This document shows, piece after piece, positions 15,303-31,513 of a DNA stretch of 42,242 nucleotides (the first letter of the stretch is position 1; every line of letters begins with the position of its first letter). Under the pieces are notes generated by a model. That model searched no databases, was not told the DNA's origin, and saw only the letters and a list, made by a program, of their open reading frames with translations. Position numbers and translations under genes: made by a program. The DNA comes from Candidatus Iainarchaeum sp. (GTDB lineage Archaea; Iainarchaeota; Iainarchaeia; Iainarchaeales; JAAZKV01), in contig JAQVNZ010000004.1 in assembly GCA_028702895.1 (NCBI GenBank), forward strand, positions 1-42,242, given 5' to 3'.

Positions 15303-15345
15303 ATTTGCGATTTTTTATTGAATGTTTAAATTAAAAAAACAATCT

Positions 15346-15390
15346 CGTCAATTGTCGTCTCAATCTTCGTCTTTTGGAAAGGTTTTTATA
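15346..15390 (+). promoter_or_regulatory. Candidate three-box operator plus BRE/TATA of gltD-like/HMGR operon
   Basis: CGTCAATTGT-CGTCTCAATCTT-CGTCTTTTGGAAA-GGTTTTTATA; same 0/+10/+22 spacing recurs at 18111 and 27297. Confidence 0.65.
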
Positions 15391-15465: not shown

Positions 15466-16803
15466 ATGCAGATTCCAAAAATATCCATTGGCGAAAGAAA
15501 AAATTCTTTTAAAGAAGTAGAAATAGGTTTCACTGAAGAAGAAGCACTCAAAGAAGCAAACAGATGTTTAAATTGTAAAAATCCGTTGTGCGTTGAGGGT
15601 TGTCCAGCAAATGTAAACATTCCTCTTTTTATAAAAGCGTTTAAAGAAGGAAGATTACAGGATGCTGCTGAAATAATTCGTGAAAAAAATTTTTTCCCAA
15701 GTATTTGTGGAAGAATTTGTCAACATGAAAAACAATGTGAAGGAAATTGCATACTAGCAAAAACAAAAGAAGGTGCTGTGAATATTGGTGGAATAGAAAG
15801 ATTTATTGGGGATCAAGCAAAACTTTCTTCTCCAAGAAAATTAAATGGAAAAAAAGTAGCTATTGTTGGTTCAGGCCCAAGTGGATTAACTGCCGCAGCA
15901 TACTTAGCATTAGAAGGAGTAAATGTTTTTGTTTTTGAAACAACAAATTCTTTTGGTGGAGTAATAAAATATGGTGTTCCCGAATTTCGTTTACCTAAAG
16001 AAACCGTTTCAAAAGACTTAATAATGTTACACGAACTTGGAATTGATTTTGAACCAAATTCAAAAATATCTGAAGATTTAATTGAAGAAGTTTCAAAAAA
16101 TTATGATGCTATTTTTGTTGGTACTGGAGTAGGTGCAACAAAAAAATTGTCAATTCCAGGATCAGATTTAAAAGGAATTATTTCAGCAATGAAATTTTTA
16201 GTTAATTTAAATCAAAGCGGAGTACCAATGGTTTCACCAGGTGAAAATGTTGTAGTTATTGGCGCAGGATATGTTGGAATAGATGCGTCTAGAAGTGCAA
16301 TTAGATTGGGTGCAAACGTAAAATGTATTACTGCGGCAACTAGGGAAGATGCACAAAAAAGTGTTTCGCCAAAAGATTATTTAGATGCAGAAGAAGAAGG
16401 AGTGGAATTTTTATTCGGTTATAATGTGGATAAATTTGAATCTGACGAAGACAATGATAAAGTAAAAAAAATATTTTATACTAATGGAGAAAAAGGAAGT
16501 GTGCAAGTAGACAAAGTAATAATTGCAATAGGTCAAGAGCATGATAAATCAGAATTAAAAAATCCGTTAAGAAACCCAGAATTGGGTTGTATTGAAGTTA
16601 ACAAAAAATATCAGACTAAAATAAAAAATGTTTTTGCAGCAGGTGATTGTGTACATGGTCCAAAAACAGTTATAGAAGCAATTGCTAATGGTAGAGATGC
16701 TGCTAAAGAAATATTACATTATTTTAAAAAAATAGATGAAGAAATAGAATTAAAATCTCAAAAAGATTTAATAGAAAAAGAGGTATCAAAAAATAAATTA
16801 TAA
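15466..16803 (+). CDS. Glutamate synthase small subunit-like / NfnB-like NADPH oxidoreductase (FeS + two FAD/NAD(P) domains)
   Basis: ANRCLNCKNPLCVEGCPANVNIPLFI, CGRICQHEKQCEGNC, KVAIVGSGPSGLTAAAYLA, VVVIGAGYVGIDASRSA, VFAAGDCVHGPKTVIEAIANGRDAA. Confidence 0.9.
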   Translation: MQIPKISIGERKNSFKEVEIGFTEEEALKEANRCLNCKNPLCVEGCPANVNIPLFIKAFKEGRLQDAAEIIREKNFFPSICGRICQHEKQCEGNCILAKTKEGAVNIGGIERFIGDQAKLSSPRKLNGKKVAIVGSGPSGLTAAAYLALEGVNVFVFETTNSFGGVIKYGVPEFRLPKETVSKDLIMLHELGIDFEPNSKISEDLIEEVSKNYDAIFVGTGVGATKKLSIPGSDLKGIISAMKFLVNLNQSGVPMVSPGENVVVIGAGYVGIDASRSAIRLGANVKCITAATREDAQKSVSPKDYLDAEEEGVEFLFGYNVDKFESDEDNDKVKKIFYTNGEKGSVQVDKVIIAIGQEHDKSELKNPLRNPELGCIEVNKKYQTKIKNVFAAGDCVHGPKTVIEAIANGRDAAKEILHYFKKIDEEIELKSQKDLIEKEVSKNKL

Positions 16804-16808
16804 AAAAG

Positions 16809-18095
16809 GTGATAAAAATAAATAAAAAAAGTTTTGAAGGATATTATAAAAAAAGCATTAAAGAAAGACAAGAAATATTATCAAAAGAATTATTATTAAC
16901 AAATGAAGAACAAAAACTTTTAGAAAAAGAAAGTTCTCTTTCATTTGATATTGCAGATAGAATGATAGAAAATGTTATAGGAACATTTCCTTTGCCATTA
17001 GGTTTAGCAACAAATTTTGTGATTGATGAAAAAGAATATGTGATTCCCTTTGCAATAGAAGAACCAAGTGTAATCGCAGCTGCTAGTAATGCTGCAAAAT
17101 TATCAAATGGGTTTATTACAGAAAATGATGAACAAATAATGATTGGCCAATTACAATTAATTAATTTAGAAAATGCTTGCGAATCAAAGAAAAAAATTTT
17201 AGAAAATAAAGAAAAAATTTTAAAAGAAGTAGAAAAAGTAGATCCAATACTCGTAAAATTTGGTGGGGGCCCAAGAGACTTAAAAGTAAATATATTAGAC
17301 ACGCCTCGCGGAAAAATGATTGAAGTGCAATTATTAGTTAATGTTGGAGATGCAATGGGTGCTAATGCAATAAATACTATGCTTGAAAAAATAACTTCTG
17401 TAATAGAAGAAATTTCTGGTGGAAAACATGTTGCAAGAATAATATCTAATTTAGCAATTTATAGACGAACCCAATCAAAAACTATTTGGACAAAAGAAAA
17501 ATTAGAAGAAAGTGTTAAAGGAACAATGAAAGGTGAAGAAATAATTGAACGAATATTAGATTTATATGAGTTTGCAGTAGCAACACCATTTAGGTGTGCA
17601 ACGCATAACAAAGGAATAATGAACGGAATCGATTCAGTTGTAATTGCAACAGGAAACGATTTTCGCGCAATAGAAGCAGGAGCACATGCTTATGCAAGTT
17701 ATAAGGGAAAATATTCTCCGCTAACAAAATACTATAAAAATTCTAACGGTGATTTAGTAGGTGAAATTGATATTCCATTAGCATTAGGATTAGTTGGTGG
17801 CGCAATAAAAGTTCATCCAATAGCAAAATTAAATGCAAAAATCTTAGGATTAAAAAAAGTACAAGATCTTGCTAGTGTGATTGCATCAGTTGGATTAGCA
17901 CAAAATTTTGCAGCAATGAGGGCTATTGCAACAACAGGAATACAATCAGGGCACATGAAATTACACGCAAAAAATATCGCAGTACAAGCAGGAGCAATAA
18001 AAGAAGAAATTGAATTAGTTGCACAAAAAATGATTGAATTAAAAGAAGTAAATCAATTAACAGCTGAAAAAATAATTGAAGAAATTAGAGAATAA
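16809..18095 (+). CDS. Hydroxymethylglutaryl-CoA reductase, class II-type
   Basis: FEGYYKKSIKERQEIL, RMIENVIGTFPLPLGLATNFVIDEKEYVIPFAIEEPSVIAAASNAAKL, VGDAMGANAINTMLE; GTG start 3 nt after the preceding stop region (the only plausible start near the conserved N-terminus). Confidence 0.93.
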   Translation: MIKINKKSFEGYYKKSIKERQEILSKELLLTNEEQKLLEKESSLSFDIADRMIENVIGTFPLPLGLATNFVIDEKEYVIPFAIEEPSVIAAASNAAKLSNGFITENDEQIMIGQLQLINLENACESKKKILENKEKILKEVEKVDPILVKFGGGPRDLKVNILDTPRGKMIEVQLLVNVGDAMGANAINTMLEKITSVIEEISGGKHVARIISNLAIYRRTQSKTIWTKEKLEESVKGTMKGEEIIERILDLYEFAVATPFRCATHNKGIMNGIDSVVIATGNDFRAIEAGAHAYASYKGKYSPLTKYYKNSNGDLVGEIDIPLALGLVGGAIKVHPIAKLNAKILGLKKVQDLASVIASVGLAQNFAAMRAIATTGIQSGHMKLHAKNIAVQAGAIKEEIELVAQKMIELKEVNQLTAEKIIEEIRE

Positions 18096-18110
18096 ATAAA
18101 TAATCTATTA

Positions 18111-18154
18111 CGTCAATGAGCGAACCTTTTTTCGTCAATCAAAAGGTTTTTATA
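18111..18154 (+). promoter_or_regulatory. Candidate three-box operator plus BRE/TATA of HMGS operon
   Basis: CGTCAATGAG-CGAACCTTTTTT-CGTCAATCAAAA-GGTTTTTATA. Confidence 0.65.
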
Positions 18155-18216: not shown

Positions 18217-19254
18217 ATGGCTGGAATAATTGGGTGGGGAGCATATATACCAAAATACAGAATAACTGCTGAAGAAATAGCCTTAGTGAATAATGATAAT
18301 GCGAATGCGATAAAAGCGGGTTTAGGTTTAACAGAAAAAAGTGTTCCTGGAAAAGACGAAGATACAATAACAATTTCACACGCTGCTACAAAAAATGCTA
18401 TTCTGCGAGCAGGAATAAAAACAAAAGAAATTGGTTCAATTTATATTGGTTCAGAAAGTCACCCTTATGCAGTAAAACCATCTTCAAGTATTGTTGGCGA
18501 TGCAATTGATTTAGGAAATGATTACATGGCCGTTGATACTGAATTTGCTTGTAAAGCAGGTAGTGCAACAATACAATTCAACATGGGTTTTGTTGATTCA
18601 AAAATGATAAATTATGGTTTAAGCATAGGTGCTGATACTAGTCAAGCAGAACCAGGAAATGCGTTAGAATATTCCGCTGCTGCTGGTGGCGCAGCATTTG
18701 TAATTGGAAAAAATGAAGAAGCAATTGCAACAATAGATTACACTTGTTCGTTTACTAGTGATACTCCTGATTTTTGGAGGCGAGCAATGCAACCTTATCC
18801 ATCTCATGCTGGGAGATTTACTGGTGAACCTGCTTACTTTAAACATGTTGTTGGTGCAACAAAAATGATTTTAGAAAAAACTAAAATGGAAATGAAAGAT
18901 TTCAAATATGTTGTATTTCATATGCCTAATGGAAAGTTTCCTGAACGCGTTGCAAAAATATTTGGGGTAACAAAAGAACAATTAGAACCAGGATTAATAG
19001 TAAAAAAAATTGGTAATACTTATTCGGGTTCAGCATTACTAGGATTAACTTGTGTATTAGATATAGCAAAACCAGGAGATAAAATTTTGATGACAAGTTA
19101 TGGTTCAGGGTCTGGGTCAGATTCATTTATTTTAACATGCACAGAAAAAATTGTTGGCGCGCAAAAAAAAGCACTAACAACACAAGATTATGTTGATAGA
19201 AAAGAATATTTGACATATTCAAAATATCGTAAACATATGGAGACAATACATTAA
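18217..19254 (+). CDS. Hydroxymethylglutaryl-CoA synthase (archaeal)
   Basis: GIIGWGAYIPKYRI, EFACKAGSATIQ, HMPNGKFPERVAKIFG, GNTYSGSALLGL. Start refined to ATG 18217. Confidence 0.94.
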   Translation: MAGIIGWGAYIPKYRITAEEIALVNNDNANAIKAGLGLTEKSVPGKDEDTITISHAATKNAILRAGIKTKEIGSIYIGSESHPYAVKPSSSIVGDAIDLGNDYMAVDTEFACKAGSATIQFNMGFVDSKMINYGLSIGADTSQAEPGNALEYSAAAGGAAFVIGKNEEAIATIDYTCSFTSDTPDFWRRAMQPYPSHAGRFTGEPAYFKHVVGATKMILEKTKMEMKDFKYVVFHMPNGKFPERVAKIFGVTKEQLEPGLIVKKIGNTYSGSALLGLTCVLDIAKPGDKILMTSYGSGSGSDSFILTCTEKIVGAQKKALTTQDYVDRKEYLTYSKYRKHMETIH

Positions 19255-19282: not shown

Positions 19283-19340
19283 TTTTATTTTAAAAAAATT
19301 TGTTTTTAAAAAAATTAATAAAAAAATTGGTGAAAAAATG
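19283..19340 (+). repeat. AT-rich leader copy 1 (before thiolase)
   Basis: ttttattttaaaaaaatttgtttttaaaaaaattaataaaaaaattggtgaaaaaatg closely matches 23902-23973. Confidence 0.5.
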
Positions 19341-20495
19341 AAAATAGGTGTAATAGGAATTGGAATTACTCGATTTGGAGAAATTTGGGATAGGGGTTTA
19401 CGCGAATTACTTTTAGACTCACAACTTCGTGCACTTAACGATGCAAAAATTGTTCCACAACAAATTGACGCAATGTTTACTGGAAATATGTTAGGTGACT
19501 CATTATCTGGCCAAGTTCATATTGGAGCAATGGCTACTGAAAACTTAAATTTAGATAAACCAAGTATTCGCGTTGAAGGAGCATGTGCTTCTGGAGCATT
19601 AGCATTACGACAAGGAATAAAAGCAATTGAATCTGGAGACGCAGAAATTGTAATGGTTAATGGAGTAGAAAAAATGACTGATGTTGACACGGGTCAAGTA
19701 ACAACCGCATTAATGGGAGCGGGAGATGAAGAATTAGAAGGGTTTCATGGGTTAACATTTCCTGGATTATATTCATTATTAGCAAACGCATACATGCACA
19801 AATACCCTAGTCTTACAAGAGATATTTTAGCAGAAGTTGCAGTAAAAAATCATTTTCATGGTGCAAGAAATTCTTATTGTCAATTCAAAAACGAGATAAC
19901 AAAAGAAACAGTAATTAATTCTACAATGGTAGCAGACCCTTTAACATTATTTGATTGTTCGCCAATAACAGATGGTTCTGCAACAATAATAATTGCAAAA
20001 GAAGAAATTGCAAAAAAAATGAATTCAGAAGTTTTTATTACAGGTTCAGGTTTAGCAACAGACACATTATCCTTAGCTAGAAGAAATACGCTAACAGCAA
20101 TTCCGGCTGGACAAAAAGCTGCAAATCAAGCATATGCACAATCAAATATAACTTCAAAAGATATTAGTTTCGCAGAAGTACATGATTGTTTTACTATAGC
20201 AGAAATAATGGCAGTTGAAGCATTAGGTTTTGCAAAAGAAGGAGAAGCATTTAATTTATATAAAAATAAAGAGACTTATTTTGATTCAAAACATCCAATA
20301 AATACTTCAGGTGGATTAAAAGCTTGTGGCCATCCTGTTGGAGCAACTGGAATAAAACAAGCAATAGAAGCAACAATGCAATTAAGAGGCGAAGCAAAAA
20401 ATAGGCAAGTTTTAAACGCAACAGTTGGAGTAACGCATAATGTTGGTGGTAGCGGAGCAACAGCATGCGTGCATGTTTTTAAGAGGTTGAGATAA
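19338..20495 (+). CDS. Acetyl-CoA acetyltransferase (archaeal thiolase)
   Basis: VEGACASGALALRQGI, FAEVHDCFTIAEI, NTSGGLKACGHPVGATGIKQ. Confidence 0.93.
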   Translation: MKIGVIGIGITRFGEIWDRGLRELLLDSQLRALNDAKIVPQQIDAMFTGNMLGDSLSGQVHIGAMATENLNLDKPSIRVEGACASGALALRQGIKAIESGDAEIVMVNGVEKMTDVDTGQVTTALMGAGDEELEGFHGLTFPGLYSLLANAYMHKYPSLTRDILAEVAVKNHFHGARNSYCQFKNEITKETVINSTMVADPLTLFDCSPITDGSATIIIAKEEIAKKMNSEVFITGSGLATDTLSLARRNTLTAIPAGQKAANQAYAQSNITSKDISFAEVHDCFTIAEIMAVEALGFAKEGEAFNLYKNKETYFDSKHPINTSGGLKACGHPVGATGIKQAIEATMQLRGEAKNRQVLNATVGVTHNVGGSGATACVHVFKRLR

Positions 20496-20894
20496 ATGTT
20501 TAGAGAAAGCCCAATTATAAGATGGAGAAATTATTCGGATAGATACAAACTTTCGGGCCATAAATGTACTAAATGTGGTGCAAATTATTTTGAAAAAAAA
20601 GGTATGTGTGTTTGTGGAAACTTAATTTTTTCAGAAATGTTTTTTTCAGGAAATGGAAAAATTGTTTCATTTACAAAAATACATTCTGGTCCAAGTGTTT
20701 TTGAAGAACAATCTCCTTATTGTGTTGCAATAATTGATTTAGAAGAAGGTGCAAGAATAACTGCCCAAATAGTTGATTGTAAATATGATGAATTAAAAAT
20801 TGGTTTAGGAGTAGAAGCAGTTTTTAGAAAATTATATAAGAGTGGAGAAAAAGGAATAATCCATTACGGAACAAAATTTAGGTTAAAATTATAA
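20496..20894 (+). CDS. DUF35 OB-fold/zinc-ribbon protein (partner of archaeal thiolase/HMGS)
   Basis: Zn ribbon KCTKCGANYFEKKGMCVCG followed by OB-fold; starts directly after the thiolase stop. Confidence 0.9.
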   Translation: MFRESPIIRWRNYSDRYKLSGHKCTKCGANYFEKKGMCVCGNLIFSEMFFSGNGKIVSFTKIHSGPSVFEEQSPYCVAIIDLEEGARITAQIVDCKYDELKIGLGVEAVFRKLYKSGEKGIIHYGTKFRLKL

Positions 20895-20944: not shown

Positions 20945-21883
20945 ATGGGTTCTAGTGGGAAAGGATTTGCAAAAACAATTCTCTTTGGAGAACACTTTGT
21001 AGTATACGGTTTACCAGGCATAGCTGCGGGATTAGATAAATTTGTTCAAGCAGACGTGCAAACATTAAAAGATTCTAAAGAAATTATTTTTGATGATAAA
21101 GTTTTTGGAGAAAAATTTTCTATTAGTGAACAACCAGAGCATATTAAAAGTCAATTATTTAATGCAATGTTTTCAAAAGAAGATTTAAATGAAAAAGGAT
21201 TAAAAATAAATATTACAGCAAATTTTCCACACGGTGCAGGATTAGGTTATTCAGCAGCATTAAGTGTTGCTATTGCAAGAGCAGTTTCAACTGAATTGGA
21301 TTTAGATTTAAAAGATGAAGAAATAAATGATTTGGCATTTAAAGCAGAAAAAATCGCACATGGTAATCCTTCTGGAATTGATAATGCGTGTGCAACTTAT
21401 GGTACAACAATTTTATTTGAAAAAGATTTTAAAACAAATGAAAACAAATTAAAACAATTAAAAAATTCTGCAAAATTATTTTGTTTACTAGTTGATACTG
21501 GAATAAAACATAATACAAAAGAAGCAATCAAAAAAGTTAAAGAAAACAAAGAATCTAACCCGCAAGAATTTGAAAGAATATTTTCTGATTATAAAAAAAT
21601 TATTGTGAAAGCAAAACAAGAATTAAAATTTGGTGGAATAAAAGAACTTGGAAAATTAATGAATGAGAATCAAGAATTATTAAAAAAAATTGGTGTTTCT
21701 TGTAAAGAAGCGGAAGACATAATACGAACAGCCACATTTGAAAATTGTTTGGGTGCAAAAGTAACAGGGGCTGGTTGTGGCGGAAACGTATTAATTTTAT
21801 GTGGGATTGAAAAAGAATTGGATAAAATAGCAAATATTTTACAAGCAAAAAAATATTCTATAATAAAAACAAAAATAAGTTAA
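20945..21883 (+). CDS. mvk: Mevalonate kinase (GHMP family)
   Basis: GFAKTILFGEHFVVYGLPGIAAGL, FPHGAGLGYSAALSVA, KVTGAGCGGNVLILC. Confidence 0.95.
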   Translation: MGSSGKGFAKTILFGEHFVVYGLPGIAAGLDKFVQADVQTLKDSKEIIFDDKVFGEKFSISEQPEHIKSQLFNAMFSKEDLNEKGLKINITANFPHGAGLGYSAALSVAIARAVSTELDLDLKDEEINDLAFKAEKIAHGNPSGIDNACATYGTTILFEKDFKTNENKLKQLKNSAKLFCLLVDTGIKHNTKEAIKKVKENKESNPQEFERIFSDYKKIIVKAKQELKFGGIKELGKLMNENQELLKKIGVSCKEAEDIIRTATFENCLGAKVTGAGCGGNVLILCGIEKELDKIANILQAKKYSIIKTKIS

Positions 21884-21934
21884 TGTTCTAAAATTTTTTA
21901 AAAAATAAAATAAATTATTTTTAATTTGATTATT

Positions 21935-22501
21935 ATGAATAATAAAAAAATTATTGTCGCAGTTACTGGGGCATCAGGAACAAATTATGCACTAGCTTTA
22001 CTTACAGCGTTAAAAAAACAAGAAATAGAAGTTCATCTTATTGTTAGTGACTGGGCAGAAAAAGTTTTAAAAGAAGAAACTGGAAAAAAAGTTATTGAAT
22101 TAAAAAAACTTGCGACAAAAAATTATTCTAACACAAATTTAGCTGCAAACATTTCTTCAAGTTCGTTTCTAGTTGATGGTATGATAATTATTCCATGTTC
22201 AATAAAAACATGTTCTGAAATATTACATGCGCATACTTCAAATTTAATTACTAGGTGTGCGGATAATATGTTAAAAACAAAAAATAAATTAATTGTTGGT
22301 GTTAGAGAAACACCATTGAGTGGGCCCACATTAGAAAATCTTTGGAAACTTTCAATATATGGTGCAACAATATTTCCGCTAAGCCCTGGATTTTATCATA
22401 ATCCTAAAAAAATAAGTGATTTAGAAAGTTTTATAGTTGGAAAAGCATTAGATTTACTAGGGATTTCAAACAAAGAATATGTTAGATGGGAGAATAAATA
22501 A
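21935..22501 (+). CDS. ubiX: UbiX-like flavin prenyltransferase
   Basis: VAVTGASGTNYALALL, SFLVDGMIIIPCSIKTCSEI, NLITRCADNMLK, VRETPLSGPTLENLWKLSIYGATIFPLSPGFYHNPKKISDL. Start refined to ATG 21935. Confidence 0.93.
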   Translation: MNNKKIIVAVTGASGTNYALALLTALKKQEIEVHLIVSDWAEKVLKEETGKKVIELKKLATKNYSNTNLAANISSSSFLVDGMIIIPCSIKTCSEILHAHTSNLITRCADNMLKTKNKLIVGVRETPLSGPTLENLWKLSIYGATIFPLSPGFYHNPKKISDLESFIVGKALDLLGISNKEYVRWENK

Positions 22502-22595
22502 TTTTTAATTTAAAAAATAATTAAATTTAAATTAATTTAAAAAAAAGTTAAATTAAAAAAAATTAATTAATAAATAATAATTTTGGTGATTGATT

Positions 22596-23870
22596 ATGAG
22601 TTTTCGTGAATTTGTAAAAAAAACAGATTATGTTATTGATAAAGCAGTTTCAAAAAATTTACAAGCGAGTGGAATAATTTATTCTGCTAGTGATAAGAGT
22701 ATATTATTTAATAAAATAAAAGAAAATGATTACAAAGTTGCTGCTAATGTTTTTGCTTCAAAAGAAAAAGTCGCAAAATATCTTAATTGTGAAACCAAAG
22801 AATTAGTTCCATTAATGATAAACGCATTAAACAATCCATCTACTCCAGAACTTATTTTGAATACCGATCATGTGGAAATAGATTTAGATTTAGAAAAAAT
22901 ACCAATATTAATCCACACTGATTCAGATGGTGCGCCTTATGTTACAAGTGGGGTAATAATAGTAAAGGATTCGATTGTTGGGCAAAATGTTTGTTATCAT
23001 AGAGGTAGAGTTATTTTTAAAAATAAATTTGCTTTAAGAATACTTGAAAGAAATACTATGGAATTACTAAAAAAAAATAATGGTGAATTAAGAGCTGCTT
23101 ATTGTATTGGAATTGGGGCAGAAATTGCTTTAGCTGCAGCAATGGCTCCGGCATTAGGAGTTAACGAATTAGAAATAGCAAATACATTAAAACCAATAAA
23201 AGTTATTAATGCAAAAACATTTGATGCGATTTTACCTGCTGATGCAGAATTTATTTTAGAAGGAAAAATAAGTTTACATGAAAGACATAGCGAAGGCCCG
23301 TTCGTTGATTTGACTGGCACAAGTGATATTATAAGAGACGAACCAGTTTTTACAGTTGAAAAAATTTATGCTAGACCAAATGCAATATATCACGCGTTAT
23401 TACCTGGCGGGTTTGAACACAAAATATTAATGGGTATGCCAAGAGAACCAACAGTATTTGATGAAGTAAAAAAAGCGGGCGTTGATATAATAGATGTTAG
23501 TATTAATCCTGGTGGAAGTTCATGGTTTCATGTTTTAATTAAGATTAATAAAAAAACAGAGGAAGATGGAAAAAAAGCAATTGTGGCTGCTATGAAAGGA
23601 CATACTAGTGGAAAACATTTTTTTGTAGTTGATAATGATATTAATATTTATGATCCATTAGAAGTAGAATGGGCGTTTGCAACAAGATTTCAAGCAAATA
23701 AAGATTTTTATAAATTTGAAAACCAAAAAGGATCTTCGTTAGATCCAAGTGCTAATCAAGTAACAAGAGAAACTACTAAAGCTGGATTTGATTTAACAAT
23801 GCCATTAGACAGAATAAGTGAAATGAAGAGAACAAAATTCCCAGAAAATAATATAAAAGATTATTTGTAA
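22596..23870 (+). CDS. UbiD-family decarboxylase; candidate trans-anhydromevalonate-5-phosphate decarboxylase
   Basis: UbiD-like: GAEIALAAAMAP, FILEGKISLHERHSEGPFVDLTGTSDIIRDEPVFTVEKIYARPNAIYHALLPGGFEHKILMGMPREP. Specific substrate inferred from neighbours. Start refined to ATG 22596. Confidence 0.85.
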   Translation: MSFREFVKKTDYVIDKAVSKNLQASGIIYSASDKSILFNKIKENDYKVAANVFASKEKVAKYLNCETKELVPLMINALNNPSTPELILNTDHVEIDLDLEKIPILIHTDSDGAPYVTSGVIIVKDSIVGQNVCYHRGRVIFKNKFALRILERNTMELLKKNNGELRAAYCIGIGAEIALAAAMAPALGVNELEIANTLKPIKVINAKTFDAILPADAEFILEGKISLHERHSEGPFVDLTGTSDIIRDEPVFTVEKIYARPNAIYHALLPGGFEHKILMGMPREPTVFDEVKKAGVDIIDVSINPGGSSWFHVLIKINKKTEEDGKKAIVAAMKGHTSGKHFFVVDNDINIYDPLEVEWAFATRFQANKDFYKFENQKGSSLDPSANQVTRETTKAGFDLTMPLDRISEMKRTKFPENNIKDYL

Positions 23871-23901
23871 ATTAATTTGCATGATGATTAAAAGTCATAA
23901 T

Positions 23902-23973
23902 TTTTATTTTAAAAAAATTTTGTTTTTAAAAAAATTTAATAAAAAATTGTTTAAAAAAATTGGTGAAAAAATG
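23902..23973 (+). repeat. AT-rich leader copy 2 (before AcnX large subunit)
   Basis: ttttattttaaaaaaattttgtttttaaaaaaatttaataaaaaattgtttaaaaaaattggtgaaaaaatg; near copy of 19283-19340 with a short insertion. Confidence 0.5.
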
Positions 23974-25164
23974 TTATTAACAAAAGAAGAACAAGAAATG
24001 CTCAAAGGAAAATATGGTAATGCTGTTAAAAAAAGCATGGAAATACTTGTCGCATTAGGCGAAATTTATGGTGCTGAAAAATTAATTAGGGTTTCATCAG
24101 TACAAGTTGCGGGGGTAAGTTATGATAATTTAGGTGAATCTGGATTAGAATATTTATCTAATCTTTCAAAAGATGGTAGAGTAAAAGTTTTAACAACATT
24201 AAATCCTGCAGGAATGGATTTAGAAAATTATGAAGCATTAGGAATATCAGAAGATTTTGCAATAAAACAAAAAATGGTAATTGATTCATTTGCAAAAATG
24301 GGGGTAATAACCACTTGTACATGTACACCTTATTTGATAGGGAATACTCCAAATTTTAATCAACATATTGCTTGGAGTGAAAGTAGTGCGGTTGCTTATG
24401 CTAATTCGGTTCTTGGTGCAAGAACAAATAGAGAAGGCGGGCCAAGTGCATTGGCATCAGCATTAACTGGCCGAACACCTTTGTATGGATTGCATTTAGA
24501 TGAAAATAGAATTGCTAAAATAAAAATAATTGTAAAAACGCAAATAAAAGGAACTCAAAATTTTGGCGCATTAGGGAAAGTTATTGGTGAAAAAATAAAG
24601 TCAACTCCTTGTTATATTATTGGAATAAACGAAGCGAGTATGGAAGAATTAAAATCATTTTCTGCAAGTATTGCAACTTATGGTGGCGCAGGAATATTTC
24701 ACATGGAAAATATAACTCCTAATAAAACAGTTATTCCGTTAGAAGAATTAATTGTCACAAAAAAAGAAATAGAAAAAGCTTTAAACGAAATGAATATGGG
24801 TGATTGTGAAGTAGATTTTGTTAGCGTTGGATGTCCACATGCGAGTATCGCTGAAATAGCAAAACTAGCTGATTTATTAAATGGAAAAAAAGTAAAAAAA
24901 GAATTTTGGATAACAACTGCAAGACCAACAAAAAAAATTGCTGACATGAGCGGTTATTCTAAAATAATTGAAACTGCTGGGGCAAAATTCGCGTCAGATA
25001 CTTGTTGTGTTGTTGCGCCAATAAAAGGAAGATTCAAATGTCTTGCAACAGATTCTGCAAAAGGGTGTTATTATGCATATTCAAAAAATCAGTCAAAAAT
25101 AAAAATAATGTCAGTTGAAAATTTAGTGAAAGAAGCGTGCAAAGAACCAAGCGTGGTGAAATAA
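23971..25164 (+). CDS. Aconitase X large subunit; phosphomevalonate dehydratase large subunit
   Basis: MLLTKEEQEMLKGKYGNAVKKSMEILVALGEIYGAEKLI, TCTCTPYLIGNTPNFNQHIAWSESSAVAYANSVLGARTNREGGPSALASALTGRTP. Start refined to ATG 23971 with GGTGA SD. Confidence 0.93.
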   Translation: MLLTKEEQEMLKGKYGNAVKKSMEILVALGEIYGAEKLIRVSSVQVAGVSYDNLGESGLEYLSNLSKDGRVKVLTTLNPAGMDLENYEALGISEDFAIKQKMVIDSFAKMGVITTCTCTPYLIGNTPNFNQHIAWSESSAVAYANSVLGARTNREGGPSALASALTGRTPLYGLHLDENRIAKIKIIVKTQIKGTQNFGALGKVIGEKIKSTPCYIIGINEASMEELKSFSASIATYGGAGIFHMENITPNKTVIPLEELIVTKKEIEKALNEMNMGDCEVDFVSVGCPHASIAEIAKLADLLNGKKVKKEFWITTARPTKKIADMSGYSKIIETAGAKFASDTCCVVAPIKGRFKCLATDSAKGCYYAYSKNQSKIKIMSVENLVKEACKEPSVVK

Positions 25165-25556
25165 TGGCGAAATTAATTGGGCGAAAAATTTTTGGTGGAA
25201 TCGCGATGGGCGAAGCACTTGTTACAAAACAAGGAATAAGTTTTTTTGGGGGGATAGACCCATCTACTGGAGTAGTGACTGAATCAGGTCATGAATTAGA
25301 AGGAAAAAGTATTAGTGGAAAAATACTTGTTTTTCCCCAAGGTAAAGGGTCAACAGTTGGGAGTTATGCATTATATAGAATGAAAAAAGAAGGTACTGCT
25401 CCAATAGCATTAGTAAATAAAGAATGTGAAACAATAGTTGCTGTTGGTGCAATAATTTCAGAAATTCCTTGTGTTGATAAAATTGATATTCTACAAATAA
25501 AAAATGGTCAAAAAATAAAAGTTGATGGTGAAAAAGGAATTGTGATTTTTGATTGA
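25164..25556 (+). CDS. Aconitase X swivel/small subunit; phosphomevalonate dehydratase small subunit
   Basis: GRKIFGGIAMGEALVTKQGISFFGGIDPSTGVV, LVFPQGKGSTVGSYALYRM; ATG overlaps the large-subunit stop (TAATG). Confidence 0.93.
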   Translation: MAKLIGRKIFGGIAMGEALVTKQGISFFGGIDPSTGVVTESGHELEGKSISGKILVFPQGKGSTVGSYALYRMKKEGTAPIALVNKECETIVAVGAIISEIPCVDKIDILQIKNGQKIKVDGEKGIVIFD

Positions 25557-25572
25557 TATTTAAATAGTTTGA

Positions 25573-25977
25573 ATGAATAACTTGATTATGCGAATTTTAG
25601 ATATAATTAAACGAAGAATGATTTTGCAACGTAATAAAAAAACAGGCATTTCTCCTTACGTACGAGGAAAAACAAAAATAAATAATGTTTTAAATTTAAA
25701 AATTAGTAAATTTTCGCATAGTGGAAAAGTGCATAATGTTGTTACTCGGCGTGATGTTAATTCATTAATAAAAATTTCAAAAGGTAGATCACAAATTGCT
25801 AAAAAAGCAGAAGGAGTGCTTTTTAATTTACAACGAAGAAAAGTTTTAGTAAAAGAAAAAAGGTTTGGAAAATTTAGAGAAAATTCACAATTGGGTTTAG
25901 TTTGGTTTGATAAACTTACTGGGCCAAATGAAAATATTGGTGCAGTTAAACGTGCTGCAAAAACAAAATTAAAATAA
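25573..25977 (+). CDS. Basic protein of unknown function embedded in isoprenoid cluster
   Basis: 134 aa, Lys/Arg-rich; no family recognised by eye. Confidence 0.45.
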   Translation: MNNLIMRILDIIKRRMILQRNKKTGISPYVRGKTKINNVLNLKISKFSHSGKVHNVVTRRDVNSLIKISKGRSQIAKKAEGVLFNLQRRKVLVKEKRFGKFRENSQLGLVWFDKLTGPNENIGAVKRAAKTKLK

Positions 25978-26016
25978 TAATATGTTATTTTTAAAAGTAA
26001 CTTAAAGAGATTTATT

Positions 26017-26817
26017 ATGAAAGATTTAATAATTTTAAAAATTGGCGGTTCTTCAATAACCAAAAAAGCCGAAAACAAATTTGAAATGAATGAAGAAATA
26101 TTAGAACGCGTGGCAAAAGAAATAGCAATTGCAAAAAAGAAAAAAGATTTTGATTTAGTTTTAGTTTGTGGTGTTGGGCCATTTGGACATACTAATGTTG
26201 TTAATTATAATTTAAATGGAAAAATTAAAACTCTTGCACAAAAAGAAGGTGTTTTAAAAACAAAAAAAGATTGTGATTTTGTTGCGTTAAAAGTAATAAC
26301 TGCGTTAAAAAAAAATGGTTTAATTGTTAATCACTTGCCTGGTTATAAAGTTTGTAAACAAGATGAAAGAAAAGTAATTTTTTTTGAAACGAATTCTTAT
26401 AAAAAATTATTAGAAAAAAATATTATTCCTGTTACAACTGGTACAATGGTGCATGATAAAAGTTTTAATTGGAGTGTTATGTCTGGAGATACAGTTATTT
26501 CAGAATTATGTAAATCTTTAAAACCAAAAAAAGTTTTAATAGGAACAGATGTTAACGGGATTTTTACTTCTGACCCAAAATTAAATAAAAAAGCAGAATT
26601 AATTGAACTAATAACAAAACAAAATTTAGAAAAAGTTTTAGAACAATGCGGTGAATCAAATTCAGTTGATGTTACTGGTGGAATGAAAGGAAAATTAGAC
26701 AAATTAGGGAAACAATTAGGAAATGTTCCTGCTGAAATATTTTCATTATTTATCCAAAAAAATTTAGAAAATGTTTTAAGTGGAAAAGAAATAAAAAGTA
26801 CAAAAATCAAGTTATAA
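26017..26817 (+). CDS. Isopentenyl phosphate kinase
   Basis: AAK fold: LIILKIGGSSITKK, VCGVGPFGHTNVVNYNL (conserved His), GDTVISELCKSLKPKKVLIGTDVNGIFTSDP, DVTGGMKGKL. Confidence 0.92.
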   Translation: MKDLIILKIGGSSITKKAENKFEMNEEILERVAKEIAIAKKKKDFDLVLVCGVGPFGHTNVVNYNLNGKIKTLAQKEGVLKTKKDCDFVALKVITALKKNGLIVNHLPGYKVCKQDERKVIFFETNSYKKLLEKNIIPVTTGTMVHDKSFNWSVMSGDTVISELCKSLKPKKVLIGTDVNGIFTSDPKLNKKAELIELITKQNLEKVLEQCGESNSVDVTGGMKGKLDKLGKQLGNVPAEIFSLFIQKNLENVLSGKEIKSTKIKL

Positions 26818-26819
26818 TT

Positions 26820-27305
26820 ATGATTCCAAACGCAAGAAAAAAAATTTCAAAAATGCATGTTGCTATTGCACAAAAAAAAGGTAGTGTAAAATTAAAAAAT
26901 GATATTCAAAAAATTCGTTTTGTTGAAAGAAAAATATTTGGTGTTGGAAAAACAATTTCTCAAAAAACATATTTTCATCCTAAAAAGAATTTGATTAAAA
27001 TTAAATTAGAAAGAGCTGGAAAAGAAATCGGAAAATTAGAAATTGGAATTAAAAAAATTGGAACTTATAAAGAAGCATTTTTTTCAGACGCGTTTATAAA
27101 AAAAACTATGCGTGAAAAAGGACTTTATTCACAAGTGGTTGCTCAAGCACTGGATGTTTTAACAAAATCGGGAGTTAATACAGTTAGATTTGAAGCTACT
27201 GGAGGACATTCTGTTTTAAAAAAAATGGGGTTCGAATCAAAATCACAATTTGGTAGTAGAATTTATTACAAAGAATTAAACCCACAAAAACAAGTTCGTC
27301 AATAA
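26820..27305 (+). CDS. GNAT-like acetyltransferase domain protein
   Basis: Motif A-like MREKGLYSQVVAQALDVLTKSGVNTVRFEATGGHSVLKKMGFE. Confidence 0.6.
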   Translation: MIPNARKKISKMHVAIAQKKGSVKLKNDIQKIRFVERKIFGVGKTISQKTYFHPKKNLIKIKLERAGKEIGKLEIGIKKIGTYKEAFFSDAFIKKTMREKGLYSQVVAQALDVLTKSGVNTVRFEATGGHSVLKKMGFESKSQFGSRIYYKELNPQKQVRQ

Positions 27306-27341
27306 ACGAAGCGATTTTCGTCTAAATGTAATGTTTTTAAA
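27297..27341 (+). promoter_or_regulatory. Candidate three-box operator plus TATA of por operon
   Basis: CGTCAATAAA-CGAAGCGATTTT-CGTCTAAATGTAA-TGTTTTTAAA. Confidence 0.6.
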
Positions 27342-27398: not shown

Positions 27399-27944
27399 AT
27401 GAAGCAAATAATTTTTTTAGGACGCGGTGGACAGGGAGCAGTTACAAGCTCACAAGTTCTTGCAATTTCTGCGTTTATTGATGGTAAACAATCACAAGCA
27501 TTTCCAAATTTTGGTGTTGAAAGAACAGGTGCACCAGTAAGAAGTTATTGTAGAATAGATGATAAAAAAATTAATTTAAGAGAACAATTAAAAGAAGCGG
27601 ATTATGCGTTAATTTTAGATCCCACATTAACAAAAAATTTAAATGAAAAGATAACTTCACTAATAATTGTTAATTCTAATAAAAAACCAGTTGACTTAGG
27701 CTTACAAACAAATGCGAAAGTAATTTGTATTGATATAACAAAAGTTGCAATGGAAAAAATTGGGAAACCATTTGTAAATATTTCAGCGCTAGGTGCTTTT
27801 GCAGCATTAACAAATGAAATAACTTTAGAATCATTAGAAAAAGCAGTTTTGCAACAAATGGGTGCAAAAGGAAGTATTGTAGAAAAAAATATTGAAGCAG
27901 TTAGAGAGGTTTATAAAATTTCTAAAAATGATTTGCAAAAATAA
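27399..27944 (+). CDS. porG: Pyruvate:ferredoxin oxidoreductase gamma subunit
   Basis: GRGGQGAVTSSQVLAISAFIDGKQSQAFPNFGVERTGAPVRSYCRI. Confidence 0.93.
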   Translation: MKQIIFLGRGGQGAVTSSQVLAISAFIDGKQSQAFPNFGVERTGAPVRSYCRIDDKKINLREQLKEADYALILDPTLTKNLNEKITSLIIVNSNKKPVDLGLQTNAKVICIDITKVAMEKIGKPFVNISALGAFAALTNEITLESLEKAVLQQMGAKGSIVEKNIEAVREVYKISKNDLQK

Positions 27945-27985
27945 TTTTATGATTTAAATAACTAAAAGATTAATGATTGATTTTT

Positions 27986-28279
27986 ATGGATAAAGAACTA
28001 AAAAGTAAAGATGGTGTAATTCTTACAAAAGGTGCGGTTATACGTGAGCCTGGATCAACAAAAAAATATAAAACTGGAGATTGGCGAACATTCAAACCAA
28101 GTATAGATCAAGAAAAATGTATTAAATGTGGGAAATGTTGGTTAAATTGTCCCGATGCTGCAATATACAAGGATAAAGATGGGAAATTTCAAATAAATTA
28201 TGATTATTGCAAAGGTTGTTTAATATGCGCGAAAGTTTGTCCTGTTAAAGCAATTGGTTTTGTGGTAGAAGAAAAATAA
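27986..28279 (+). CDS. porD: Pyruvate:ferredoxin oxidoreductase delta (ferredoxin) subunit
   Basis: GDWRTFKPSIDQEKCIKCGKCWLNCPDAAIY...DYCKGCLICAKVCPVKAI. Confidence 0.93.
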   Translation: MDKELKSKDGVILTKGAVIREPGSTKKYKTGDWRTFKPSIDQEKCIKCGKCWLNCPDAAIYKDKDGKFQINYDYCKGCLICAKVCPVKAIGFVVEEK

Positions 28280-28341
28280 TTTTGTTTAAGCGAATATGAT
28301 TTTTATTTGAAATGATTTAAGTTTATTTGGGAATGATTTTT

Positions 28342-29487
28342 ATGGTTGAAAAAAAAGTAATGTCAGGTTCAGAAGCAATTGCATTAGCAGTAAAATTATG
28401 CAAACCATTAGTTTTACCAATGTACCCAATCACACCTAGTACACTTGTTCCAGAAAAATTATCTGAATTTGTAGCTAATGGTGAATTAAACGCTCAAATG
28501 ATTTATGTTGAATCAGAACATTCTGCAATATCAGCTTTATATGGAGCATATGCTACGGGAGTTCGATCTTTCACAGCTACTGCTTCTCAAGGTTTAGCAT
28601 TAATGCATGAAATTATTCCAATAGTTTCTGCTTCAAGATTTCCAGCTGTAATGTTTATTGCAAACAGGGCTTTATCTGGGCCATTAAGTATTTGGAACGA
28701 TCATTCAGATTCAATGAGTGAACGCGATCAAGGTTGGATACAATTATTTTGTGAAGATATTCAAGAAGCATTTGATACTATAATAATGGCATACAAAATT
28801 GCTGAAAAAGAAAATGTTTCCTTACCTATAATGGTTTGCGCAGATGGTTTTATTTTAACACACGTTTACGAACCAGTACAAATAGAAGAACAAGAAAAAA
28901 TAACTGATTTTGTTGGAACATATAATCCAAAAGATTTTTTGGACACTAAAAACCCAAAAACATTTGGTGCATTCGCACAACCAAATACTTATTTTGAATT
29001 CAAAGAACAAGTACAAGACGCAATGATGGAAGCATTAAAAGAAATAAAAAATGTGAATGAAGAGTTTGGAAAAAAATTTAAAAGAAAATATGGTGATGGA
29101 TTAATAGAATTAATAGAAATGCAAGATGCAGAATATGCACTATTGATTGCAGGAAGTACTATTGGAACTGCAAGAGAAGTAGTAAAAGATTTAAGAAAAA
29201 AAGGTAAAAAAGTTGGGTTAATAAAATTAAAATCTGTTCGGCCATTTCCAACAAAAGAATTAATTTTAGCTTCAAAAAAATTAAAAGGATTAGGAATTAT
29301 AGATAGACATATTTCTTTAGGATATGAAGGCGCATTATGTACTGAAACAAAAGCAGCATTAGTAAAAGAAAAAGTTAATGTAACAGGATTTATCGCGGGA
29401 TTAGGTGGACGAGATATTGATAGAGAAAGAATAAGACACGCTTTTGATTTAATAATAAATGGAAAAGAAGGCGTTTGGTTAAAATAA
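28342..29487 (+). CDS. porA: Pyruvate:ferredoxin oxidoreductase alpha subunit
   Basis: YPITPSTLVPEKLSEF, ESEHSAISALYGAYATGVRSFTATASQGLALMHE, ANRALSGPLSIWNDHSDSM. Confidence 0.94.
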   Translation: MVEKKVMSGSEAIALAVKLCKPLVLPMYPITPSTLVPEKLSEFVANGELNAQMIYVESEHSAISALYGAYATGVRSFTATASQGLALMHEIIPIVSASRFPAVMFIANRALSGPLSIWNDHSDSMSERDQGWIQLFCEDIQEAFDTIIMAYKIAEKENVSLPIMVCADGFILTHVYEPVQIEEQEKITDFVGTYNPKDFLDTKNPKTFGAFAQPNTYFEFKEQVQDAMMEALKEIKNVNEEFGKKFKRKYGDGLIELIEMQDAEYALLIAGSTIGTAREVVKDLRKKGKKVGLIKLKSVRPFPTKELILASKKLKGLGIIDRHISLGYEGALCTETKAALVKEKVNVTGFIAGLGGRDIDRERIRHAFDLIINGKEGVWLK

Positions 29488-29503
29488 TTTATTGGTGAAA
29501 TTT

Positions 29504-31513
29504 ATGGCTATAATTGGATTTGAAGAAAAAGAGTTTTTTGCACCAGGGCACAGAGCATGTGCTGGTTGTGGGGAAGCACTTGCATTAAGACACGTGTTAA
29601 AAGCAGCAGGACAAGAAACAATTTTGGTAATGGCAACAGGGTGCATGGAAGTAGTTTCAACACCATATCCTGAAAGTGCTTTTGAAATTCCATGGGTGCA
29701 TTGTGCATTTGAAACAGTTGGTTCAGTAGCAAGTGGAGTAAAAGCTTCATTAATCGCGAAAGGTGATACTAAAACAAATGTTATTGGAATGGGTGGAGAC
29801 GGAGCAATGTTTGACATTGGTTTTGGAGCATTAAGCGGAGCGTTAGAACGCGGACACAAAATATTATTTGTTGTAACTGATAATGAAGCTTACATGAATT
29901 GTTTAGCTTTAGACTCTTTAATAATGACAAAAGAGGGTCTGAAAAAGATTACTGAAATAAATGTTGGTGATGAAGTATATGCATTTAGTCAATCTACTCA
30001 TGAATTAGTTTTAAAAAAATGTAGTGGAGTATTTGACAATGGAAAAAAAAGAGTTTTTGAAATTAATACGTCTTCAAACACAATAAAAGCAACTGGAAAT
30101 CATCCTTTTTTAATTCTTCAAAGAAATGGAAAAGAGGGAAAAAATAAATTTGTTTGGAAAATGGTTGAAGAACTAAAAGTTGGTGAAGAAGTTGTAACTT
30201 TAAAAAAAGGTCTTGAAGGCAAATCCTATAACTTTTCAAATATTAAATTATCTAAAAAAGGAGATTATAAAGTTAACAAAATAAACGAAGTAAATTTACC
30301 AGGTAAATCTTCGCCCAAAATAATGAAATTATTTGGAATTTATGTTGGTGATGGCTGGACAAGAATAAATAAAGCTGAAGTTGGATTTGCACTTCCAAAT
30401 GGAAAAAAAGGAAGAAAAGAAGCAAAACAATTAATTGAGAGTTTATCTTGGAATAACTGTTTAAGTGAAAACGAAAATGAATTGCAACTTAGATCAATAA
30501 ATATTGCGCGATTTTTTGATTCACAAGGATTTGGCAAAGGTGCAAAAAATAAAATTATTCCACAATGGGTTTTCACATTACCACTAAAAGAAAAACAAGC
30601 ATTTGTTGAAGGATTATTACTCTCTGATGGATATACTATTGGTAAAAGTCATCGATATGTTTCTGCTAGTTATGAACTTCTTAGAACATTAAGATTATTA
30701 TTACAAACAATGGATATGCAAGTTGGTAAAATTCACCAACAAACAAAAAAGAAAGGAGTTCTTGTTGTAAAAAAACAATTGCTTGCAGATTCAACTTATG
30801 GTTATGTTTGTTTTAGTGGAAAACAAGGCGCGATGTTAAAATATGCTAATCAAAATAAACAAAGAAATTTTTTATTTGGAAATGAGCATTTTGAAACAAA
30901 GAAAATACTTTCAATAGAAAAAAAAGGTATTGAAAAAACACTTGATTTAAGAGTGGATGGAGAACACAATTTTGTTGCAAATGGAGTTGTTGTTCATAAT
31001 ACTGGAATTCAAAGAAGTGGTGCAACATTTCCTTATGCTAATACTACTACTTCGCCAGCAGGAAAAATAATTGTTGGAAAACAAGAACCAAAAAAACCTT
31101 TAACTTTTATTGCAGCAGCACATGGGATAAAATATGTGGCCTCTGCATCAGTATCAAACTTATTTGATTTAAAAACAAAAGTTCAAAAAGCACTGGCAAC
31201 AGATGGGCCATCATTATTACACGTTTATGTTCCTTGTATTCCTGGGTGGAAAATGGATTCTTCTTTAACCATAGATATTTCAGTAAAAGCTTTTGAAACA
31301 AATGTTTTTCCATTATATGAAATAGAAAATGGTGTGCTTAAATTAAATCAAAAAGTTCCTCAAAAAAAAGGAATTGAAGAATATTTAATGATGCAAGGTA
31401 GATTCAAACATATTACTCCAGAAATTGCTCTAAAAATGCAAACGTATGTTGATGCACGATACAAATTTTTAGAAGAAAATAATGGAAAAAAAATATTCGA
31501 TACATTATTTTAA
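29504..31513 (+). CDS. porB: Pyruvate:ferredoxin oxidoreductase beta subunit, interrupted in-frame by an intein
   Basis: FFAPGHRACAGCGEALALRHVLKA, GMGGDGAMFDIGFGAL...DNEAYMN^TGIQRSGATFPYANTTTSPAGK; intein between N and T. Confidence 0.95.
   Translation: MAIIGFEEKEFFAPGHRACAGCGEALALRHVLKAAGQETILVMATGCMEVVSTPYPESAFEIPWVHCAFETVGSVASGVKASLIAKGDTKTNVIGMGGDGAMFDIGFGALSGALERGHKILFVVTDNEAYMNCLALDSLIMTKEGLKKITEINVGDEVYAFSQSTHELVLKKCSGVFDNGKKRVFEINTSSNTIKATGNHPFLILQRNGKEGKNKFVWKMVEELKVGEEVVTLKKGLEGKSYNFSNIKLSKKGDYKVNKINEVNLPGKSSPKIMKLFGIYVGDGWTRINKAEVGFALPNGKKGRKEAKQLIESLSWNNCLSENENELQLRSINIARFFDSQGFGKGAKNKIIPQWVFTLPLKEKQAFVEGLLLSDGYTIGKSHRYVSASYELLRTLRLLLQTMDMQVGKIHQQTKKKGVLVVKKQLLADSTYGYVCFSGKQGAMLKYANQNKQRNFLFGNEHFETKKILSIEKKGIEKTLDLRVDGEHNFVANGVVVHNTGIQRSGATFPYANTTTSPAGKIIVGKQEPKKPLTFIAAAHGIKYVASASVSNLFDLKTKVQKALATDGPSLLHVYVPCIPGWKMDSSLTIDISVKAFETNVFPLYEIENGVLKLNQKVPQKKGIEEYLMMQGRFKHITPEIALKMQTYVDARYKFLEENNGKKIFDTLF
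29900..31000 (+). mobile_element. Intein (367 aa) with LAGLIDADG homing endonuclease in PorB
   Basis: Cys1 (CLALDSLIMTKEGLKKITEINVGDEVYAF), TxxH block B (KATGNHPFLIL), LAGLIDADG-like helices (LFGIYVGDGW; AFVEGLLLSDGY), C-terminal block VDGEHNFVANGVVVHN followed by Thr+1. Confidence 0.95.

Follow-up and report, generated by a model that had tools for sequence, protein, structure and literature searches.

MsvR belongs to the ArsR-type winged helix-turn-helix (wHTH) family, and the Ptr2 operator is GGACGATTTTCGTCC. The MsvR operator of methanogens consists of TTCGTAN4TACGAA plus a third box in direct orientation, and the spacing of its inverted pair is TTCG-N7-9-CGAA (PMC3729527). SurR of the Thermococcales binds GTTn3AACn5GTT, and the electron-flow genes named among its targets by way of the same source include two ferredoxin:NADP+ oxidoreductases (PMC12162507). 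Archaeal Lrp-type activator sites lie a few bp upstream of the BRE and are helically phased (PMC2995911, PMC4046817). Context for the lower archaeal-type mevalonate pathway is given in PMC10040528, and in the literature that we searched we met no account of a regulon for mevalonate synthesis in archaea.

Here, a three-box element is described that precedes three transcription units of a Candidatus Iainarchaeum genome, namely the gltD-like/HMG-CoA reductase (HMGR) operon, the HMG-CoA synthase (HMGS) gene and porGDAB. We put the probability that it is a transcription-factor operator co-regulating these units at roughly 80%, judging from sequence and its conservation.

Results

The window is the whole 42,242-nt stretch of contig JAQVNZ010000004.1 that was analysed; it belongs to an Iainarchaeota (Diapherotrites) MAG, whose named relatives are Ca. 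Iainarchaeum and Ca. Forterrea MAGs, and was compared across the ten genomes of its family (G000-G009). Copy 3 of the element (27295..27322, + strand), upstream of porGDAB, comprises TTCGTC (27295-27300), an inverted AACGAA (27305-27310) and a second TTCGTC (27317-27322). Positions 27297-27341 read CGTCAATAAACGAAGCGATTTTCGTCTAAATGTAATGTTTTTAAA, and the CG-boxes start at 27297, 27307 and 27319 (0/+10/+22), exactly where the preliminary description of this DNA had placed them. That description spoke of a triple CGTC: there are indeed three boxes, but the second reads CGAA in copies 2 and 3 and is an inverted half-site, not a further CGTC. Box 1 does overlap the last codons of the preceding small ORF (26820..27305, +), at its Arg-Gln-stop, as had been noted; the GNAT-like label attached to that ORF is weak, since it has no Pfam GNAT match and is tied to GNAT only through a distant counterpart in G002 (34% identity), itself matching GNAT at E 4e-5, just under the cut-off. 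The predicted BRE/TATA of the por promoter lies at 27329..27341 (+), with the T-rich, TATA-like TTTTTAAA at 27334-27341, 11 nt past box 3. Within the window TTCG-N8-CGAA occurs once, at 27295, and copy 3 reaches a leave-one-out matrix score of 24.3 against a shuffle maximum of 4.4.

Copy 1 (15344..15371, +; CTCGTC AATT GTCGTC TCAATC TTCGTC) lies upstream of the gltD-like/HMGR operon, with a TATA element, TTTTTATA, at 15383-15390, and copy 2 (18109..18136, +) lies upstream of HMGS, with TTTTTATA at 18147-18154; their CG-boxes start at 15346 and 18111 respectively. When up to three mismatches are allowed the spaced pattern matches the window three times, at copies 1-3, against a mean of 0.13 in shuffled sequence, and none of 100 shuffles of the window reached three matches. 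Genome-wide, where the tests were pattern searches plus selected stretches, the 926-kb assembly holds three exact matches to the spaced pattern, all of them within the window, and none to its reversed control.

The first target unit opens with a gltD-like FAD/4Fe-4S pyridine-nucleotide oxidoreductase (15466..16803, +; Pfam Fer4_20 and Pyr_redox_2) that scores 360 bits against NCBIfam gltA, under the cut-off of 472. It is thus a GltA homologue below the cut-off, with a 4Fe-4S domain, and its role with ferredoxin or NAD(P)H is putative. The gene is followed by HMGR of the TIGR00532 type (class II; 16809..18095, +; 423 bits against a cut-off of 260). HMGS is of the archaeal type (18217..19254, +) and passes the cut-offs of both NF003274 (514 bits) and TIGR00748 (469 bits); behind it stand an acetyl-CoA acetyltransferase-type thiolase, recognised by profile, and its DUF35 partner, recognised by sequence and conserved neighbourhood (19338..20894, +). 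The lower archaeal-type mevalonate pathway occupies 20945..26817 (+) with mevalonate kinase (MVK), UbiX, a UbiD-family decarboxylase, AcnX large and small, an ORF at 25573-25977 and isopentenyl phosphate kinase (IPK). MVK, UbiD and IPK score over their profile cut-offs and IDI2 likewise passes its curated cut-off; AcnX large stays below cut-off, at 264 bits against cis-3-hydroxyproline dehydratase. The ORF at 25573-25977 encodes a 134-aa basic protein with no Pfam match. The third unit comprises porG (27399-27944), porD (27977-28279), porA (28327-29487) and porB (29492-31513), all on the + strand. The porB gene contains an intein (Intein_splicing, LAGLIDADG), which alignment lengths suggest is present in G001 and G008 and absent from G002, G003, G005 and G007.

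Across the family the order IDI2-[site]gltD-HMGR-[site]HMGS-thiolase-DUF35-MVK-UbiX-UbiD-AcnX-IPK-[site]porGDAB is broadly conserved, and por adjoins the mevalonate genes in most genomes. An NAD-kinase-like gene lies between gltD and HMGR in G003 (L105:8588-9391), a position that suggests reductant supply is part of the target set. Two genomes of one genus, G007 and G009, encode an MvaD-type diphosphomevalonate decarboxylase (L114:6353-10144, L117:335-1345), and G007 additionally a PMK-type phosphomevalonate kinase, whereas their relatives have the AcnX/UbiD route; these lower-pathway enzymes sit near por or upper-pathway genes. The gltD site is still kept where the lower pathway differs in this way, which points to a regulated unit made up of the upper pathway and its inputs. 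In genus g2, ORFs of about 280-300 aa with no Pfam match lie between HMGS and thiolase (L101:13495-14412, L110:14190-15044, L107:7153-7980); those of L101 and L110 are alike, and that of L107 occupies the same position.

The refined pattern, run with up to two mismatches on all ten family genomes with the reversed pattern as control, gave 26 matches against 8. Seventeen of the 26 fall exactly at target promoters (gltD-like 10, HMGS 4, porG 3) and not, as the preliminary description had allowed that such a scan might find, mainly at unrelated non-promoter positions. The other nine are at about the level of the reversed control and, with one or two exceptions, are found in coding DNA, inside or antisense to ORFs. 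One match lies at an ORF end (G000:C41:79101). An intergenic and perfect match to the refined motif (G000:C14:4780-4805; L024, L119) precedes the gene of a predicted membrane protein of 128 aa; the TATA-like element there stands about 4 nt nearer than usual, and the match marks a possible fourth target in G000 alone.

Promoters were also picked by gene instead of by motif and scored with a matrix from which each genome in turn was left out. Motif-bearing promoters score 16.5-33, above all of their own shuffles, and G007 por scores 11.0, above its shuffles by a narrower margin. The gltD promoter carries the motif in 10/10 genomes. Where HMGS has its own promoter the motif is present in 5/7 (G000, G003, G004, G005 and G009) and absent in G001 and G002; in G006 and G007 HMGS directly follows HMGR and so has neither promoter nor motif of its own. 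The equivalent figure for por is 5/8 (G000, G002, G003, G008 and, weakly, G007), with one extra base in the palindrome of G002. Only the left part or half-palindrome is kept at por in G001 and G005, and the G004 por promoter has no motif; in G006 por directly follows a kinase gene, with no promoter or motif of its own, and the G009 assembly yielded no por genes. Judged by this comparison the por copy is real and conserved in both genera, though less well than the other two sites.

From site to site, identity is 92% at core positions and about 31-39% in the flanks, and the three promoters inside one genome have the motif and TATA in common and nothing else, so they did not arise by promoter duplication. 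When box 3 and the BRE/TATA alone were used as a query against the ten whole genomes, 8 sites were returned, 8/8 of them at gltD or HMGS promoters. The pattern had been defined on the three copies, in a window chosen for holding them, so they might be look-alikes without a common function, arisen by chance or left by a shared promoter or mobile element. However, the motif was recovered independently at orthologous promoters of nine other genomes with diverged flanks, and paralogous promoters show no flank similarity; this conservation effectively refutes such an origin, whose probability is negligible. The motif is not chance. Outside the family there was no enrichment (in 83 genomes the motif had 18 matches and its reversed control 32), and the motif was not found in HMGS upstream regions there, where HMGS often directly follows HMGR.

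Family-wide comparison resolves the element into three half-sites, of which the second is inverted: TTCGTC-N4-GACGAA-N6-TTCGTC. The conserved positions give a half-site T[TA]CG[TA][CT], forward in boxes 1 and 3, and box 2, with the family consensus [GA]NCG[TA], forms a palindrome with box 1. TTCG-N7..9-CGAA is exact at por in G000, G002, G007 and G008 and at gltD in G008, whereas the remaining sites keep the CG and the spacing but not the full TTCG/CGAA. The CG steps of 0, +10 and +22 place the boxes near one helix face. Box 3 stands 10-13 nt from the TATA core at 18 sites, a fixed short distance to the BRE/TATA of the kind found at archaeal activator sites, and the distance from motif to ATG varies from 70 to 224 nt. 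The inverted repeat might also be taken for structure in a 5' leader RNA, but that variable distance to the start codon and the lack of any Rfam match in the window speak against it, and an element upstream of TATA would not be transcribed from its own promoter; such a reading is scarcely credible. The SurR motif GTTn3AACn5GTT was looked for in the window and 28 regions around target promoters and has no occurrence there; the Ptr2 site, in the form given above, and GACG-N5-CGTC are likewise absent from the window and target promoters.

Searches of the window and of the conserved cluster brought up no gene for a regulator. An ArsR-type protein of about 100 aa (98-119 aa) with 3-4 largely conserved Cys is encoded in 7/10 family genomes, in G000 on the minus strand near C37:48385-48528. 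It did not come up in G002, G003 or G006, all of which bear the motif, and search sensitivity or incomplete assemblies may account for this. Against the MsvR model the protein scores 33 bits (cut-off 220) through its HTH part alone, with no V4R domain, and it fits the general ArsR/SmtB model far better; its HTH resembles MsvR just as one ArsR protein among others. A conserved wHTH protein of about 170 aa, P0001, whose gene is close to the por cluster of G002 and of G008, was dropped as a candidate: it is beside grpE/dnaK/dnaJ in G000 and G002 (P0001-type genes at L121:4679-5221 and L122:1148-1654) and is therefore likely to be a heat-shock regulator of the lineage.

Meanwhile, a single Lrp ortholog scores over cut-off in 9/10 family genomes (in G000 at C37:91205-91714), and its recognition-helix stretch, LTDVAIKKR, is invariant. 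The operator might accordingly be bound by this single-copy Lrp/AsnC-type regulator, much as Ss-LrpB binds at Sulfolobus porDAB, with phased dimers beside the BRE activating in response to a metabolite, and 2-oxoacid:ferredoxin oxidoreductases are frequent targets of Lrp proteins in archaea (PMC2995911, PMC4046817). We consider this unlikely: the element has one palindrome and one half-site, and the positions after box 3 form no conserved second palindrome, so the arrangement of an Lrp-type operator, with at least two palindromic dimer sites spaced by 2-3 helical turns, is not found here, and the archaeal Lrp consensus used for Ss-LrpB, TTGCAAAATTTGCAA, differs and is of odd length. Furthermore, Lrp regulators often autoregulate, yet no operator was detected in the examined DNA flanking the Lrp genes, nor in that flanking the ArsR genes; both are unlinked to the mevalonate/por cluster.

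Discussion

The proposal in the preliminary description that a shared operator joins por, HMGS/HMGR and an NAD(P)H oxidoreductase is backed by conservation in the family (gltD 10/10, HMGS 5/7, por 5/8), and comparative genomics likewise lends support to its suggestion of a carbon/redox regulon for isoprenoid lipids. With three half-sites on about one helix face, abutting the BRE and ending 10-13 nt upstream of the TATA core, a winged-helix dimer could bind the inverted pair (boxes 1-2) while a second subunit or dimer takes the promoter-proximal half-site (box 3). From this position we infer that the bound factor would most likely recruit TBP/TFB and so activate transcription. Occupancy beside the BRE could instead block TFB/TBP, and a change of signal would then derepress the operons. 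For MsvR, whose operator comes closest in geometry, obstruction of the BRE has been proposed as the means by which it represses its own promoter (PMC3729527), so repression is conceivable here. Box 3 does not overlap the TATA core, however, and its position matches that of a described archaeal activator site, which leaves repression rather unlikely and activation favoured by about 2:1.

Among the three units, gltD-like/HMGR would turn reductant into NAD(P)H and take part in the committed steps to mevalonate, HMGS with thiolase and the mevalonate genes would contribute to the same committed steps, and porGDAB would produce acetyl-CoA and reduced ferredoxin. This suggests that one regulator could tune membrane-lipid synthesis to carbon and electron supply. 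The likeliest class of factor is an ArsR/MsvR-like wHTH protein with conserved cysteines, which would imply a thiol or redox signal, and the single conserved Lrp is the main alternative. More tentatively, and with the odds somewhat against the picture as a whole, a thiol-/redox-sensing ArsR/MsvR-like regulator in a DPANN-type lineage may tie the upper part of mevalonate synthesis to pyruvate:ferredoxin oxidoreductase and to the supply of NAD(P)H, as a dedicated membrane-lipid-precursor regulon kept whether the lower pathway is AcnX/UbiD or MvaD/PMK.

For uncultured archaea whose genomes are reduced, the motif offers a small, conserved and directly testable candidate regulon. It singles out genes that would be expected to move together, narrows the regulator to a few candidates and suggests how such cells might balance lipid synthesis against the supply of ferredoxin and acetyl-CoA.

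Among known systems, SurR is an ArsR-fold redox switch whose site likewise joins an inverted repeat to a third half-site in direct orientation, although both half-site and spacing differ, and to our knowledge mevalonate genes are not among its targets. The resemblance to Ss-LrpB at porDAB of Sulfolobus lies in the targeting of a por operon, in phased sites just upstream of the BRE and in a small local regulon, but Ss-LrpB sites are 15-bp odd palindromes (TTGCAAAATTTGCAA) and the Ss-LrpB gene adjoins its targets, a linkage not seen here. MsvR differs in that its half-site ends in A where that of the present element ends in C, in that its targets are msvR and oxidative-stress genes, and in being reported as unique to methanogens and equipped with a V4R domain, which the 98-119 aa ArsR candidate lacks. 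The element shares with MsvR operators the half-site TTCGT[A/C], the 6-4-6 spacing of the inverted repeat (with TTCG-N8-CGAA complete at some of the sites), the extra direct-repeat box and the location at the BRE/TATA.
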